Of a stretch of 64,000 nt of DNA, positions 56,322-62,702 are shown piece after piece. Numbering within the stretch: position 1 is the stretch's first letter; every line of letters begins with the position of its first letter. The stretch comes from Asticcacaulis sp. ZE23SCel15 (GTDB lineage Bacteria; Pseudomonadota; Alphaproteobacteria; Caulobacterales; Caulobacteraceae). Position numbers and translations under genes: made by a program. Location of the stretch: contig NZ_CP130044.1 of assembly GCF_030505395.1 (NCBI RefSeq), positions 2,651,001 through 2,715,000 on the forward strand, read 5' to 3'. Under the pieces are notes generated by a model. That model ran no database searches. It was not told the origin of the DNA and saw only the letters and a program-made list of their open reading frames with translations.

Positions 56322-56382
56322 GCCATCACCTGATCGACCTTTAATTTTAGGGGTGCCCGAGGCACCCACATGGAGCAACTGG

Positions 56383-59300
56383 ATGAACCAGGAAGTCCTC
56401 AATATTTTCAATCCGGTCCAGGTCGCCCCGACCTTCGACCAGATCCGCATCACTCTGGCATCGCCTGAAAAGATCCTTTCGTGGTCGTTCGGTGAGATCA
56501 AGAAGCCGGAAACCATCAACTACCGCACGTTCAAGCCTGAGCGTGATGGTCTGTTCTGTGCGCGTATCTTTGGCCCGACCAAGGACTATGAGTGCTTGTG
56601 CGGTAAGTATAAGCGCATGAAGTACAAGGGCATTATCTGCGAAAAGTGCGGCGTGGAAGTCACTCTGTCGCGTGTTCGTCGTGAGCGCATGGGCCACATC
56701 GAACTGGCCTCGCCGGTCGCCCACATTTGGTTCCTGAAGTCACTGCCGTCGCGTATTTCCATGTTCCTCGACATGGCGCTTAAGGACGTAGAGCGGGTTC
56801 TGTACTTTGAAAACTACATCGTTACGGAACCGGGTCTGACCGCGCTTAAGCTTAACCAGCTTCTGACCGAAGACGAATATTATCGCTGTCAGGAAGAATT
56901 CGGCGACGACAGCTTCACGGCTGAAATCGGTGCCGAAGCTATCCGCAATATGCTGATGTCGATGAACCTCAGCGAGATTGCCGATAAGCTGCGTTCGGAT
57001 CTGGCCGATAATCCTTCGGAAATGAAGGCCAAGAAGGCGTCCAAGCGCCTTAAGCTGATCGAAGCGTTCATGGAATTGGGCAACAAGCCTGAATGGATGA
57101 TCCTGACGGTTGTGCCGGTCATTCCGCCTGAGCTGCGCCCGCTGGTGCCGCTGGATGGTGGCCGTTTCGCGACCTCCGACCTGAACGACCTCTATCGCCG
57201 CGTCATCAACCGGAACAACCGTTTGAAGCGTCTGATGGAACTGCGCGCACCGGACATCATCATCCGTAACGAAAAGCGTATGTTGCAGGAATCGGTTGAC
57301 GCCCTGTTCGACAATGGTCGTCGTGGTCGTGTCATCACCGGTGCCAACAAGCGTCCTCTGAAGTCGTTGGCCGATATGCTGAAGGGTAAGCAGGGCCGCT
57401 TCCGTCAGAACCTGCTGGGCAAGCGCGTCGACTATTCGGGTCGTTCGGTTATCACCGTGGGCCCGGAACTGAAGCTGCACGAGTGCGGTCTGCCCAAGAA
57501 GATGGCGCTGGAACTGTTCAAGCCGTTCATCTATGCCCGTCTGGATGCCAAGGGCCTGTCCGGCACCGTTAAGCAATCCAAGCGCATGGTCGAGCGTGAG
57601 CAGCCGCAGGTTTGGGATATCCTCGAAGAGGTTATCCGCGAACATCCGGTCATGTTGAACCGCGCCCCGACGCTTCACCGTCTTGGGATTCAGGCGTTTG
57701 AGCCCAAGCTGATCGAAGGTAAGGCGATCCGTCTGCATCCGCTCGTCTGTTCGGCCTTTAATGCCGACTTCGACGGTGACCAGATGGCTGTCCACGTCCC
57801 GCTGTCGCTGGAAGCTCAGCTCGAAGCCCGCGTCCTGATGATGTCGACCAACAACATCCTGTCGCCGGCCAACGGTAAGCCGATCATCGTGCCGTCGCAG
57901 GATATCGTGCTGGGTCTCTATTATCTTTCGCTCGTGAAAGAAAAAGAGCAGGGCGAAGGCATGATCTTTGCCGACCTGAACGAAATTCAGGCCGCCCTCG
58001 ATGCCGGTGTTGTCTCCATGCACGCCAAGGTCAAGTGCCGCTTCACCGAAGTCGATCCTGACGGCGAAACCCGCACCCGTGTCATCGACACGACGCCGGG
58101 CCGCATGAAGATCGCCGCTCTGCTGCCGCGTCACGCCTCGATCGGTATCCGGGTTCTGGAAAAGAACCTTACGAAAAAGGAAATCGGCAACCTGATCGAC
58201 GTGGTTTATCGCCACTGCGGTCAGAAGGCGACCGTGATTTTCGCTGACCAGATGATGGCGCTGGGCTTCAAAGAGGCGGCGCGCGCCGGTATCTCGTTCG
58301 GTAAGGACGACATCGTTATTCCGGATTCCAAGAAGGGTATCGTCGAAGAAACCCGTAACCTGGTTGAGGAATACGAGCAGCAATATGCTGATGGTCTGAT
58401 CACCAAGGGCGAAAAGTACAATAAGGTCGTTGACGCCTGGTCGAAAGCTACCGACCGCGTGTCTGACGAAATGATGAAGGAAATCAGCCGTAAGCACCTC
58501 AATGCTGATGGTACTGAAAAAGAGATCAACTCGATCTACATGATGGCCAACTCCGGTGCCCGTGGTTCGCAGGCCCAAATGAAGCAGCTTGGTGGTATGC
58601 GCGGCCTTATGGCCAAGCCGTCGGGCGAAATCATTGAAACGCCGATCATTTCGAACTTTAAAGAAGGCCTGTCGGTTATGGAGTACTTCAACTCCACCCA
58701 CGGCGCCCGTAAAGGTCTGGCCGATACCGCGCTGAAGACGGCCAACTCCGGTTATCTGACCCGCCGTCTGGTTGACGTCGCTCAGGACTGTATCATCATG
58801 GAGCCGGATTGCGGCACGACGAAGGGCATTACGCTCCGCGCCGTGGTCGAAGGCGGTGACGTGCTGGTATCGCTGGGCGCACGCGTTCTGGGCCGCACCA
58901 CGGCTGAGGATATCAAGGACGTGGCGACTCAGGAAGTCGTGGTCGAAGCGGATACCTATGTCGACGAAGAAGTGGTCGAGCTGATCGAAGCTTCGGGCGT
59001 TCAGTCGGTTAAGGTGCGTTCGGTCCTGACTTGTGAGGCGGAACTCGGTGCCTGTGCGGCCTGCTACGGTCGCGATCTGGCCCGCGGTACCCGCGTCAAT
59101 ATGGGCGAAGCGGTCGGCGTCATTGCGGCGCAGTCGATCGGCGAACCCGGCACGCAGCTTACCATGCGGACCTTCCACATCGGCGGTACCGCTCAGGTGG
59201 CCGAGCAGTCGTTCTATGAAACGACGGCGGACGGCGTGATCAAGCTGACCGGCGGCAACACGGTTAAGGGCACCCACGGTGACCTGATCGCCATGAGCCG

Positions 59301-60570
59301 TAACGTCATGATCACGGTTCACCATGATGGTAAGGATCGTGAAACCTATAAGGTGCCTTACGGTGCGCGCCTGCGTATCGTGGACGGCTCCGAGGTCAAA
59401 AAAGGCCAGCGTCTGGCGGAGTGGGACCCCTATACCACCCCGATCATCACCGAAGTCGGCGGTAAAATCCGGTTTGAAGACCTCACTGACGGCATGTCGG
59501 TGCGTGAAGAAACCGACGAAGCTACCGGCATCACCAACCGCGTGGTCGCTGACTGGCGTGCCTCGCCGCGTGGGTCTGACCTGCGTCCGGGCATGGGCAT
59601 TGTCGATGATGCCGGCGCCTATAAGCGTCTGGCCAACGGCACTGAGTTGCGTTACCTCCTGCCGGTCGGGGCTATTCTCTCGGTCGGTAACGGTGACGAG
59701 GTTCGTCCGGGTGAAATCCTGGCACGTATCCCGACCGAAGGTGCCAAGACCCGCGACATCACCGGTGGTCTGCCGCGCGTCGCCGAACTGTTCGAAGCTC
59801 GCCGTCCGAAAGACTGTGCTGTCATCGCCGAAATGGATGGCCGCGTAGAATTTGGTCGCGACTATAAGAACAAGCGCCGCATCAAGATCACGCCGGAAGA
59901 TGGTTCAGAAGCCGTCGAGTTCCTGATCCCGAAAGGCAAGCATATCTCGGTTCACGATGGTGACTTCATCCAGAAGGGTGACTACATCATCGACGGCAAC
60001 CCCGATCCGCATGATTTGCTGCGTATTCAGGGCGTTGAATCCCTGGCTGAGTATCTGGTCAACGAAGTTCAGGACGTTTACCGTCTGCAAGGCGTGCCGA
60101 TCAACGACAAGCACATCGAAGTCATCGTGCGTCAGATGCTGCAAAAGGTGGAAATCCTTGAGCCGGGCGATACCGGCCTCATCAAGGGCGATCACCTGGA
60201 TAAGACCGAGGTTGATCTTGATAATGCCAAGACGGAAAAGCGCGGTGGCCGTTTGGCGGTCACTCAACCGATCCTGCTCGGTATCACCAAGGCGTCTCTG
60301 CAAACGAAGTCGTTCATCTCGGCCGCTTCGTTCCAGGAAACGACCCGCGTCCTGACCGAAGCTTCGGTCAACGGCAAGGTCGATACTCTGGACGGCTTGA
60401 AAGAAAACGTCATCGTCGGTCGTCTGATCCCGGCCGGTACGGGCGCTTACCTGCGCTCGCTCCAGCGCATCGCGCTTAAGCGTGATGAGCAACTGGCCCA
60501 GACCCGTGAAGAGACGATGGAGCCGCTGCCGGCGGAAATTTTGCTCGAAGCGCCTGCGGCTTCCGAATAA
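56383..60570 (+). CDS. rpoC: DNA-directed RNA polymerase subunit beta'
   Basis: This 1395-residue subunit carries the catalytic magnesium in '[12 protein letters not shown]' (about residue 465) and the zinc ribbon '[20 protein letters not shown]' (about 70-90), plus a second Cys set in '[17 protein letters not shown]'. Start at 56383 is chosen for the usual MNQEVLNIF sequence and the GGAG site upstream; a GTG ten codons earlier lacks support. It is co-transcribed with rpoB and ends at a strong terminator. No rpsL-rpsG-fusA follows. Confidence 0.98.
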
Positions 60571-60592: not shown

Positions 60593-60630
60593 AAAGCCCT
60601 TGAGCCTTGCGGTTCAGGGGCTTTTTTTTA
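60593..60630 (+). terminator. Terminator after rpoC
   Basis: AAAGCCCCTGAAC-type stem: AAAGCCCTTGAGCC pairs (with G-T pairs) with GGTTCAGGGGCTTT around a short loop, followed by seven Ts. It ends rpoBC. Confidence 0.9.
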
Positions 60631-60637
60631 AATTGAC

Positions 60638-60681
60638 AATATGTCACCTGCAGGTTACATGTAACCCGTAGGTGACATATT
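60638..60681. promoter_or_regulatory. Double-dyad operator over the promoter of the small HTH operon
   Basis: A near-perfect 44-bp palindrome is made of four copies of ATGTNACC in alternating orientation: ATGTCACC (60641-60648), GGTTACAT (60653-60660), ATGTAACC (60659-60666), GGTGACAT (60671-60678). They form two 20-bp dyads, each with a 4-base spacer, that share 2 bases at the centre. A TTGACA -35 box (60633-60638) and a possible TACATG -10 (60656-60661) are covered. A ribosome site GGAG follows at 60682. The likely binder is the HTH protein encoded by the second gene of the operon. Confidence 0.75.
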
Positions 60682-60691
60682 GGAGCGCGTC

Positions 60692-61141
60692 ATGACGGAT
60701 AATGATCGTCTTATTCAGCAGGCAGAGCGACTGGGTCATTTACGCCGGTTATTCCTGATTGGTCAGGCTGTTGGCTATATCGGATGGATAGGGTCAAGCG
60801 GACTTGAATATGTCAGGGCTCCACTTATTGATCCGTTTATACTGAAATTTGTGCAGAACATGTGCTGGCCTTTGTGGCTTGTCAGTCTGCTGGCGACCTT
60901 GTTGCTGATGCGTCGCACGGCTATAGATCGTCAACTGGGGGCCTTGCTGGATGATGAGCGCACATCGGGCTTAATCAAAAGCGTCTTTCAAACCAGCTAT
61001 TGGGTTCTGCTGATCGCTGTAGCGCTCGTCTATGCCGCCACCTTTGTGGCCGAGGTTGATATACGCGCTATAGCGCCCGTCCTGTTATCGATCGGGGTCG
61101 CCGTACCGTCCCTGACCTATGCTTGCCTTTATCGCGGCTGA
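60692..61141 (+). CDS. Four-TM membrane protein, first gene of HTH operon
   Basis: This 149-residue protein is not recognised. It has four hydrophobic segments: about residues 21-42, 54-74, 103-120 and 126-146, and a short charged N-terminus. The start at 60692 (ATG) has GGAG 6 bases upstream; TTG at 60680 is less likely. It is followed after 3 bases by the HTH regulator gene. Such membrane-protein plus YozG-type regulator pairs are common as small accessory operons, but the function is unknown. Confidence 0.75.
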   Translation: MTDNDRLIQQAERLGHLRRLFLIGQAVGYIGWIGSSGLEYVRAPLIDPFILKFVQNMCWPLWLVSLLATLLLMRRTAIDRQLGALLDDERTSGLIKSVFQTSYWVLLIAVALVYAATFVAEVDIRAIAPVLLSIGVAVPSLTYACLYRG

Positions 61142-61144
61142 TAA

Positions 61145-61357
61145 ATGAGCGTTCTGAAAAACCACCTGAAAGAGTATCGGTCAGCGCGTAACCTGACCCA
61201 GGCCGATCTGGCCGTGATGGCTGGGGTCTCGCGTAAGACAATCAATACCATTGAAAATGAAGTCTTTGTCCCTTCAGCTATATTGGCCCTGAAACTGGCC
61301 CATGTGCTCGAATGTCGCGTCGAAGACCTTTTCTATCTTGAAGGGATCGTCGAATGA
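61145..61357 (+). CDS. XRE/Cro-type HTH regulator (YozG-like)
   Basis: This 70-residue protein is almost only an HTH domain: 'LKEYRSARNLTQADLAVMAGVSRKTINTIE' (helices 2 and 3 of the XRE fold, about residues 8-37), then 'PSAILALKLAHVLECRVEDLFYLE'. It matches small YozG/Cro-like regulators. It should bind the double dyad upstream and repress its own operon. Its stop overlaps the start of the 54-aa gene (ATGA). Confidence 0.9.
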   Translation: MSVLKNHLKEYRSARNLTQADLAVMAGVSRKTINTIENEVFVPSAILALKLAHVLECRVEDLFYLEGIVE

Positions 61358-61518
61358 ACTGGATGGAAGCCCACAACAAATTCAAAGAAAAGCGGCGCAG
61401 TGCTCAGGAGGGACGCCGTAAGGCTATGATGGAACTGGCTATACAAATCAGCCTATGGAGCGGCGCTCTGGCGGTTATGGGATTGCTGGCTAGGTTTTAC
61501 ACTGAAACATCTAAATAG
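61354..61518 (+). CDS. 54-aa single-TM protein, third gene of HTH operon
   Basis: A small gene starts at ATG 61354 within the stop of the HTH gene (ATGA overlap) and ends at 61516-61518. It encodes 54 residues: a charged N-terminal half 'NKFKEKRRSAQEGRRK' followed by a TM-like segment at about residues 28-47 ('LAIQISLWSGALAVMGLLA'). The sequence is not recognised. The tight overlap makes translation likely. Its last 8 bases overlap the opposing flavoprotein gene. Confidence 0.7.
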   Translation: MNWMEAHNKFKEKRRSAQEGRRKAMMELAIQISLWSGALAVMGLLARFYTETSK

Positions 61519-62702
61519 CCTGACCGGCCGCCCAGCCCGATGACCACGCCCATTGGAAGTTATAACCACCCAGCCAGCCGGTAACATCCAGCGCTTCGCC
61601 AACGAAGTATAGTCCTTCACACAACTGGCTTTCAAAGGTCTGTGACGAGATATCCTTGGTGTCGATGCCGCCAAGCGTGACTTCGGCGGTACGGTAGCCT
61701 TCGGTGCCGTCCGGGATCAGGCTCCACGGCTGAATGTGCGATAATATGCCCTTGATCTTTACGTCGGACATGTCGGCGATCTTGGTCTCGTTCGTTTCAG
61801 CACTAAGACCCTGAGCAGCCATGATTTTCTCTGCCAGGCGACGCGGCAGGATTTCAAACAGGGCCGTATGTAGAGATTGACGGGTTTTGCGCTTGGCCCG
61901 GAACCACTCCATCAGATCCATGTCGGGCCGGAGGTCGACCTCAAGCGTTTGCCCCATCTGCCAATAGTTGGAAATTTGCAGTATAGCCGGGCCGGACAGG
62001 CCGCGATGGGTGAACAAAAAGCCGTCTTCAAACTTGGTCTTGCCAACCTTAACGCGCGCCTGCATCGAAACACCGGCCAGATCAAGCGCCTGAAGCTTAT
62101 CGGGGCTAAGCGTCAGGGGCACCAATCCTGCCCGCATAGGGGTGATCACATGGCCGAACTGCTTGGCGGTCTCATAGGCAAAAGGCGACCCCAGTTTCGG
62201 GATCGACAAGCCGCCGGTGGCAATGACCACTTTTTTGGCTTTGACGGTCTCATTGGTCGTGGTGATATCAAAACCGGCGTCGTTTTTAGTAATCGCGGTG
62301 ATGGCCGTTTGCAGCCACAGTTCGCCGCCATTATCGCGCAATTCATTCAGCAGCATGTCGATGATGTCCATGGCGGACTTATCGCAGAACAACTGGCCTT
62401 CGGTTTTTTCGTGATAAGGAATTTTATGGCGCTCAACCAAGCCTACGAAATCGCGCGGTGTGTAGCGCTTTAAAGCTGAAATGCAAAAGCGTGGATTTTG
62501 CGACAGGTAGTTGTGCGAGTGCGCGCGCAGGTGCGTAAAGTTACAGCGCCCACCGCCGGAGATACGAATTTCTGGCCGGGGCGTCAGCCTGCTCCAGCAC
62601 GACGACTTTTTTTCCACGTTTCGCGGCTTCGATCGCGCACATAAGGCCTGCGGCACCGGCGCCGATGATGGCAGCATCATAGTATTTTGGGGAAGAGGAC
62701 AT
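61511..62702 (-). pseudogene. Frameshifted BaiN/HI0933 family flavoprotein
   Basis: Homology covers a full HI0933 family NAD(P)/FAD-dependent oxidoreductase: the FAD-binding start 'YYDAAIIGAGAAGLMCAIEAA' from ATG 62702, then 'ISGGGRCNFTHLRAHSHNYL', and the end 'VGEALDVTGWLGGYNFQWAWSSGWAAGQAI'. At 62569-62580 the frame breaks: the original frame would read PAR NSY and end at TAA (62541-62543), giving only 53 residues, while the rest lies in another frame. Compared with the family consensus (A-P-G-Q-K-I-R-I-S) one base seems missing from a T-run and one from a C/G-run. This is either a real inactivation or a sequencing error at homopolymers. Confidence 0.85.

Follow-up and report, generated by a model that had tools for sequence, protein, structure and literature searches.

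Background

In front of a small operon of Asticcacaulis sp. ZE23SCel15, which codes for a membrane protein and a 70-aa XRE-type protein, copies of one half-site stand in alternating orientation, and the question they raise is which protein would read them and with what effect on the genes behind. For most small XRE proteins whose genes adjoin that of a small membrane protein, no role has been assigned to our knowledge.

Two described systems offer points of comparison. In PMC3709268, CylR2 of Enterococcus faecalis is described as bound, in the inactive state, to the promoter of the cytolysin genes. CylR1 is there a suspected membrane protein, needed for induction by an unknown route, and the two are discussed as a possible two-component system without phosphorelay. 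For the C protein C.Esp1396I, PMC3758141 reports that two dimers cooperatively fill a 35-bp operator, giving a tetrameric repression complex with a bend centred on TATA.

Methods

The window is a stretch of 64,000 nt of Asticcacaulis sp. ZE23SCel15 (NZ_CP130044.1, 2,651,001-2,715,000, forward), and all positions are given in window coordinates unless a locus is named. For the XRE protein within the family, the test set consisted of 30 loci, the best of the family search. A scan of species genomes with the XRE alignment provided 479 relatives, of which the best 80 were analysed; 78 of these 80 named relatives had at least 400 bp of upstream DNA. A dyad pair was defined as two GTNAC-N6-GTNAC dyads within 2 kb upstream, with at most one mismatch per dyad. 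Start sites were taken 7 bp after the -10 element, using the best of 16-18 bp spacers.

Results

The twin dyad and its operon

The operon lies behind rpoC, in the order membrane gene, XRE gene, 54-aa gene, and its features are as follows.

56353-60570, rpoC, the preceding gene, with RNA_pol_Rpb1 domains
60593-60624, plus strand, terminator-like hairpin between rpoC and the operon, a 14-pair stem followed by a T run
60633-60638, plus strand, predicted -35 box TTGACA, assigned by sequence; TTGAC precedes dyad 1 in 12 of 13 readable family loci
60637-60682, candidate twin operator as a whole, a 46-bp inverted repeat
60641-60660, dyad 1 (core 60643-60658), in the -35/-10 spacer, conserved in relatives
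60656-60661, plus strand, predicted -10 box TACATG, 17 bp past TTGACA at the junction of the dyads, assigned by spacing
60659-60678, dyad 2 (core 60661-60676), over the predicted start site, its centre 35.5 bp past the first T of TTGAC
60682-60685, plus strand, GGAG, 6 nt before the ATG at 60692 and probably the ribosome-binding site from which the membrane gene is translated
60692-61141, plus strand, membrane protein of 149 aa with a DDERT motif, modelled as four long helices
61145-61357, plus strand, XRE (HTH_3) protein of 70 aa, proposed repressor, CylR2-like predicted fold
61354-61518, plus strand, 54-aa protein with one hydrophobic segment, its start overlapping the XRE stop

The half-site ATGTNACC occurs four times, at 60641(+), 60653(-), 60659(+) and 60671(-), over a total span of 38 bp. 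ATGTNACC-N4-GGTNACAT is found without mismatch at 60641-60660 and at 60659-60678; both 20-bp dyads have a 4-bp spacer, read ATGTNACCN4GGTNACAT with no mismatch and have the AT at 60659-60660 in common. This agrees to the base with the original prediction, which described four alternating half-sites in 38 bp with equal 4-base spacers and a shared 2-base centre. Also the 44-bp near-palindrome described there (60638-60681) was recovered, 40 of its 44 positions being unchanged in the reverse complement, and it can be extended to an inverted repeat of 46 bp (60637-60682) with arms of 23 nt each, 60637-60659 and 60660-60682, which are 91% complementary. One detail had to be corrected: the dyads were said to cover the TTGACA box, but 2 bp separate the end of the box from the first 20-mer and 4 bp from its GTCACC core, and the outer arm of the palindrome overlaps only its last two bases.

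Allowing up to two mismatches, the 20-mer is expected 0.18 times in the window, where two perfect copies are observed; none of 100 shuffles reached two. No other place in the 3.77-Mb genome matches it with 0 or 1 mismatch, the next best site having two. The looser core GTNACN6GTNAC is by itself not unusual, with two or more matches in 7 of 100 window shuffles, so that the rarity lies in the flanks, in the adjacency and above all in the conservation. Exact sites of the form GTNACCN4GGTNAC number four in the genome, two of them being the window dyads, and the reversed-pattern control also gives four.

The predicted -10 hexamer is weak, agreeing with TATAAT in three of six positions, and the identical hexamer occurs in several relatives; a promoter scan of the window did not report an operon promoter with this element. 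By Pfam the four neighbouring genes are rpoC and genes of an HI0933-like flavoprotein, an SCP2 protein and a protein of metallo-beta-lactamase fold, and no restriction or methylation gene was found among these four. The flavoprotein gene (minus strand, 61511-62702) is apparently split into the overlapping frames 62541-62702 and 61511-62680, which appears to be a frameshift or a sequencing error.

The encoded proteins

The XRE protein passes PF01381 (HTH_3) with 47.6 bits against a curated cut-off of 23. Its structure model (pLDDT 94) has five helices and a short strand pair, and is best matched by CylR2 (2xiu, E 4e-6, 0.7 A over 60 residues; 1utx also 0.7 A). CylR2 and DR_2454 are the nearest solved structures, followed by C.AhdI, and C.BclI was also matched. 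DR_2454 of Deinococcus radiodurans (PDB 9k3w, named 'PbsX family') has the same fold and 50-51% identity over 60-63 columns; its recognition stretch, VSRQTINALETGKYDPS, is like that of a paralogue in the Asticcacaulis genome itself (locus L165, VSRQTVNAIETEKYDPS), which has no dyad pair. In NCBIfam the protein is weakly similar, below cut-off, to antitoxins of the Y4mF and HipB types, and its nearest named relatives are from Asticcacaulis. The label 'YozG-like' used in the original prediction fits only loosely, the nearest solved structures being those just named and pairs with an SRQT or SRQA helix being the ones without dyad.

For the membrane protein, four long helices were modelled with pLDDT 88, and no match among PDB folds was obtained at E<=0.001. 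A Pfam scan of the 149-aa protein gave no match, DUF2178 (PF09946) included. The latter matched weakly in 3 of 13 close homologues (best E 4.4e-4) and is absent from the 25 families listed, of 38, for 30 diverse partners, so that an assignment to DUF2178 would be a weak one. In the alignment of the 30 diverse partners, conservation of 90% or more is found only at M1, D88 and E89, and the DDERT motif would be cytosolic, because positive residues flank D88/E89. An open reading frame with at least two hydrophobic segments directly precedes the XRE gene in 30/30 family loci and in 74/78 named loci, by a hydropathy count which does not speak of homology. At one family locus (L065) this frame is an unrelated-looking one of eight segments, which leaves 29 of 30 possible partners. 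The pairing in these loci fits a sensor-type role of the membrane protein, and a putative functional link to the XRE protein is drawn from gene order and analogy. Two further arrangements were also seen: in two genomes of genus g3 (L166 and L167) the twin dyads are followed by two membrane genes in tandem, of 5-6 hydrophobic segments each, and only then by the XRE gene, which we read as a duplicated partner, and in Asticcacaulis (L050, L052-L055, L057) a single-segment protein of 48-67 aa was noted by eye behind the XRE gene, none being seen in other genera among the loci listed. By tblastn, a small frame like the 54-aa one follows the XRE gene in three other Asticcacaulis loci.

Conservation of the dyads

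A homologue of the membrane protein was found in 14 of 199 Caulobacteraceae genomes. Twin dyads stand ahead of the membrane gene in 13 of these 14 loci, with TTGAC just upstream in 12 of the 13 (L017 has TTGTC); in the fourteenth, L013, only part of the protein was aligned, and the twin site of its genome (G149) is visible in L057. When the 199 genomes were scanned with the 34-bp twin pattern having a 2-bp gap, 43 of them matched with up to three mismatches (reversed control 13) and 36 with up to two. At least 34 of these 36 sites lie within 1.5 kb of an XRE match by a tally made by eye; of the remaining two, one is beside the membrane gene in G154 and one, in G075, is unrelated. Among the matches listed, none of the seven three-mismatch sites is near an XRE match.

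Starting from the XRE gene, 28 of the 30 loci from Caulobacteraceae have a dyad pair, with a 2-bp gap in 26 and a 4-bp gap in two, the latter gap being also that of the further loci L160 and L161. The two misses are L065, with one dyad, and L072, with a pair that has two mismatches in all. Among the named relatives the pair stands upstream of the XRE gene in 71 of 78 loci, 57 of them perfect in the core, as compared with 1/78 in downstream stretches and 3/1560 in dinucleotide shuffles, none of these perfect. Four of the seven loci without a pair have one exact dyad and three (L145, L147, L152) have none; L147, from a Pseudoalteromonas isolate, is a clear negative, with neither pair nor exact single dyad upstream. 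Orthologous operons without the dyad had been named in advance as what would refute the proposal, and what was found instead is a pair kept in 28/30 family and 71/78 named loci. By this phylogenetic footprint the 70-aa XRE protein, proposed from the outset as a natural candidate, is very probably the binder.

The best 80 relatives are mostly from Alphaproteobacteria, with the gammaproteobacterial Kangiella, Pleionea and Pseudoalteromonas. Metagenome-assembled genomes among them carry the labels, as deposited, Gemmatimonadota, Armatimonadetes, Bacteroidales and Spirochaetia. The loci under the last two labels resemble each other closely and fall into one group with a Rhodobacteraceae locus, so that binning errors are likely. 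In a sample of 385 genomes of the class, the strict twin pattern was met once (in the Asticcacaulis genome itself) and a pattern with embedded TTGAC once (L185), counts from which no more follows than a sparse occurrence in these genomes. An autorepressing XRE protein is in principle ordinary; what deserves attention is a candidate operator nearly constant across two proteobacterial classes, with one dyad fixed at the start site and the other re-placed, and with controls at hand.

Promoter layouts

Layouts were classed by the best-scoring dyad pair, since TTGAC itself passes as a one-mismatch half-site. Of 71 pairs so classed, 38 have TTGAC inside dyad 1 (GTAACCTTGACGTTAC and variants, with a 16-20 bp gap in 33 of the 38), 20 have a 2-bp gap, nine have gaps of 4-10 bp and four are of other kinds. 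TTGAC, looked for only up to 14 bp from the start of dyad 1, was found in 64 of the 71 loci, all belonging to the three main layouts, and was missing within this distance in seven. In all 64 the centre of dyad 1 lies past the first T of TTGAC, by either 1.5 or 14.5-18.5 bp (window, 17.5). The centre of dyad 2 lies 33-38 bp past that T in 57 of 64 (window, 35.5), the seven exceptions having it at 22.5 (four loci), 40.5, 42.5 or 43.5 (one locus each); the predicted start site falls inside dyad 2 in 59 of 64. Since the dyads lie on the promoter and the start site, both should, judged from these positions, block the polymerase. In four Kangiella loci the 17-bp spacer between TTGACA and TAAAGT is nearly filled by dyad 1, and L125 has an extra dyad upstream of its TTGAC-bearing one.

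Spacing between dyad centres runs from 18 to 43 bp across loci, with gaps of 2-27 bp, so that one cooperative contact geometry cannot fit all of them. On the tree at least 12 changes of architecture are needed; because the alignment is short (65 columns) and few forks are supported, no count of layout origins was drawn from it.

Site and regulator

Five membrane-XRE pairs with another recognition helix, two in the Asticcacaulis genome itself (L165, L168) and three in relatives (L162, L163, L164), have no dyad pair upstream. Their recognition stretch has SRQT (four pairs) or SRQA (one pair) in place of SRKT; the L165 stretch is the one given above, and L168 has one stray one-mismatch dyad, downstream of the XRE start. 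Presence of the dyads depends on the type of recognition helix, as far as these five pairs go. Exceptions in gene order were found as well. In G154 regulator and membrane gene are unlinked and each has a dyad: the XRE gene (L065) has one, with TTGAC in its middle, and follows the unrelated-looking eight-segment membrane gene, and the membrane gene (L018), on a different contig, has twin dyads and no XRE gene in the 3.4 kb examined. In L129 twin dyads stand 49 bp ahead of the XRE match itself. Taken together with the paralogous pairs, these loci show the site going with the regulator whatever the order of the genes.

Some of the paralogous pairs carry elements of another kind. Upstream of the XRE paralogue of L168 (G000:C1:3530506), at 989-1008 of that locus, a dyad ATGTAAGGN4CCTTACAT stands just before TTGAC, with a further CCTTACAT downstream of it, and this dyad is likely a parallel operator that follows another code. 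In L163, L164 and L165, repeated GACAAG, CTTGTC and CTTGACA were noted by eye around the promoter that precedes the membrane gene; they are perhaps the operator of SRQT-type regulators.

Stray sites

With up to one mismatch, TGTNACCN4GGTNACA has 130 sites in the 37 system-bearing genomes of Caulobacteraceae, each of which has at least one, and 37 sites in 37 genomes without it, 20 of which have one; the latter come from two other genera, in which weaker XRE matches are present. Within Asticcacaulis, nine genomes with the system hold 45 sites, 16 of them the operon's own dyads, and the rest amount to 3.2 per genome, against 43 sites or 2.7 each in 16 genomes without it. A large regulon, considered on the ground of such stray sites, was rejected, as they show no excess in this genus. 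Of five stray sites in the Asticcacaulis genome under study, four have an open frame over them (L199, L200, L202, L203) and one does not (L201), and the site sequences of L200 and L201 recur in two genomes without the system, G060 and G153. Stray counts being alike with and without the system, the operator is most likely private to its own operon as regards strong sites, and weaker targets are possible.

Discussion

With considerable confidence we propose that the four half-sites are a twin operator of the downstream operon, at which dimers of the XRE protein would repress their own synthesis and, hence, that of the membrane partner. One dimer of the 70-aa protein would sit on each GTNAC-N6-GTNAC dyad, and two dimers would probably fill the operator cooperatively. 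With both dyads filled, the -35/-10 spacer, the -10 box and the start site would be covered and RNA polymerase shut out. Dyad 2 may serve as the anchor at the start site, the placement of dyad 1 varying by lineage and staying on the promoter. The membrane protein, a likely sensor by analogy, would respond to something at the membrane and free or hold the repressor through its cytosolic D88-E89 motif (DE-T), as was proposed for CylR1/CylR2.

Among other accounts of the same dyads, a switch of the C-protein kind, in which at low dose a dimer on dyad 1 recruits the polymerase and at high dose a second dimer represses, borrows some strength from the match of the XRE model to C.AhdI and C.BclI and from the further dyad of L125, and adjacent dyads filled cooperatively are also the arrangement that PMC3758141 describes for C.Esp1396I. 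We nevertheless find it unlikely, as the centre of dyad 1 lies 1.5-18.5 bp past the first T of TTGAC in the 64 loci where TTGAC was found up to 14 bp from dyad 1, and such a position speaks for a block and not for recruitment. The dyads could also belong to a different host regulator, the XRE protein binding elsewhere: half-sites of the form GTNAC are generic enough to look like sites of other families, and our linking of XRE protein and dyads is drawn from the DNA. This is very improbable to us, given that the sites track the XRE gene through Alpha- and Gammaproteobacteria, are missing from the tested paralogous pairs and are present at both unlinked parts in G154.

XRE antitoxins autorepress, and the operon might accordingly be seen as a toxin-antitoxin-like unit, with the XRE protein as antitoxin and autorepressor and one of the membrane proteins as toxin; the sub-cut-off likeness to Y4mF and HipB and the small single-segment protein behind the XRE gene would suit it. 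We give this no more credit than a foreign regulator, arguing that in L008-L011 conservation is much higher for the XRE protein (80-88%) than for its partner (40-44%) and that the two genes are apart in G154. As for the palindrome acting as RNA or as a cruciform, to which a 46-bp inverted repeat lends itself, it lies mostly upstream of the predicted start, and relatives part the dyads by 2-27 bp with each dyad intact, which does not allow a single hairpin; this we consider extremely improbable. Autorepression by the XRE protein thus remains the preferred reading.

Like CylR1/CylR2, the operon pairs a small membrane protein with a small XRE protein, whose predicted fold is the one of CylR2 (1utx and 2xiu, both at 0.7 A). 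According to PMC3709268, the CylR regulator genes run against the cytolysin operon that is their target, and the two promoters overlap; in the window, unlike there, the candidate operator would drive the pair itself, beginning with the membrane gene, and our search for sites gave no other target. The membrane protein has four helices in the model, against the three predicted for CylR1 in that source. With C.Esp1396I and C.AhdI the system shares XRE-fold dimers and two adjacent dyads, the XRE model matching C.AhdI and the cooperativity being described for C.Esp1396I. Unlike C proteins of restriction-modification systems, it has a membrane partner and no restriction or methylation gene among its four neighbours, and dyad 1 is on the promoter in 64/64 measured loci, not upstream of -35 as for activation.

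In open-licence PMC literature we found no paper on DR_2454 and none on DUF2178 or on GTAACCTTGACGTTAC; in that on CylR2, PbsX, XRE in Caulobacter and YozG, a membrane-XRE twin-operator system was not recognised among the matches listed. By the present results one membrane-XRE pair gains a concrete candidate DNA target, conserved in two classes of Proteobacteria, along with a proposed promoter logic and a negative control of its own. Three promoter layouts around one unchanged site also make a natural series on how operator placement tunes an autorepressor. A wider reading is tempting, and rather doubtful at present: the loci would represent a sparse, far-reaching chromosomal family of phosphorylation-free signalling in Alpha- and Gammaproteobacteria, perhaps in other phyla, in which a membrane protein with the DE-T motif directly captures a CylR2-fold repressor from, or releases it to, a nearly unchanging twin operator, the start-site dyad being fixed and the other having moved in evolution, either to the -35/-10 spacer or to a place where it encloses the -35 box (GTAAC-CTTGAC-GTTAC). 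If this is true, one protein-DNA code gives differently tuned switches.

Two Caulobacteraceae loci show irregular regulator genes. In L159 (G118) the XRE frame is several residues short in the helix-turn-helix, an adjacent four-helix partner is missing and only a two-mismatch dyad is present, so the locus looks like a decaying copy. In G166 (C44:17796-17987) an XRE match beside twin dyads is read through one TAG stop, possibly a broken regulator next to an intact operator.
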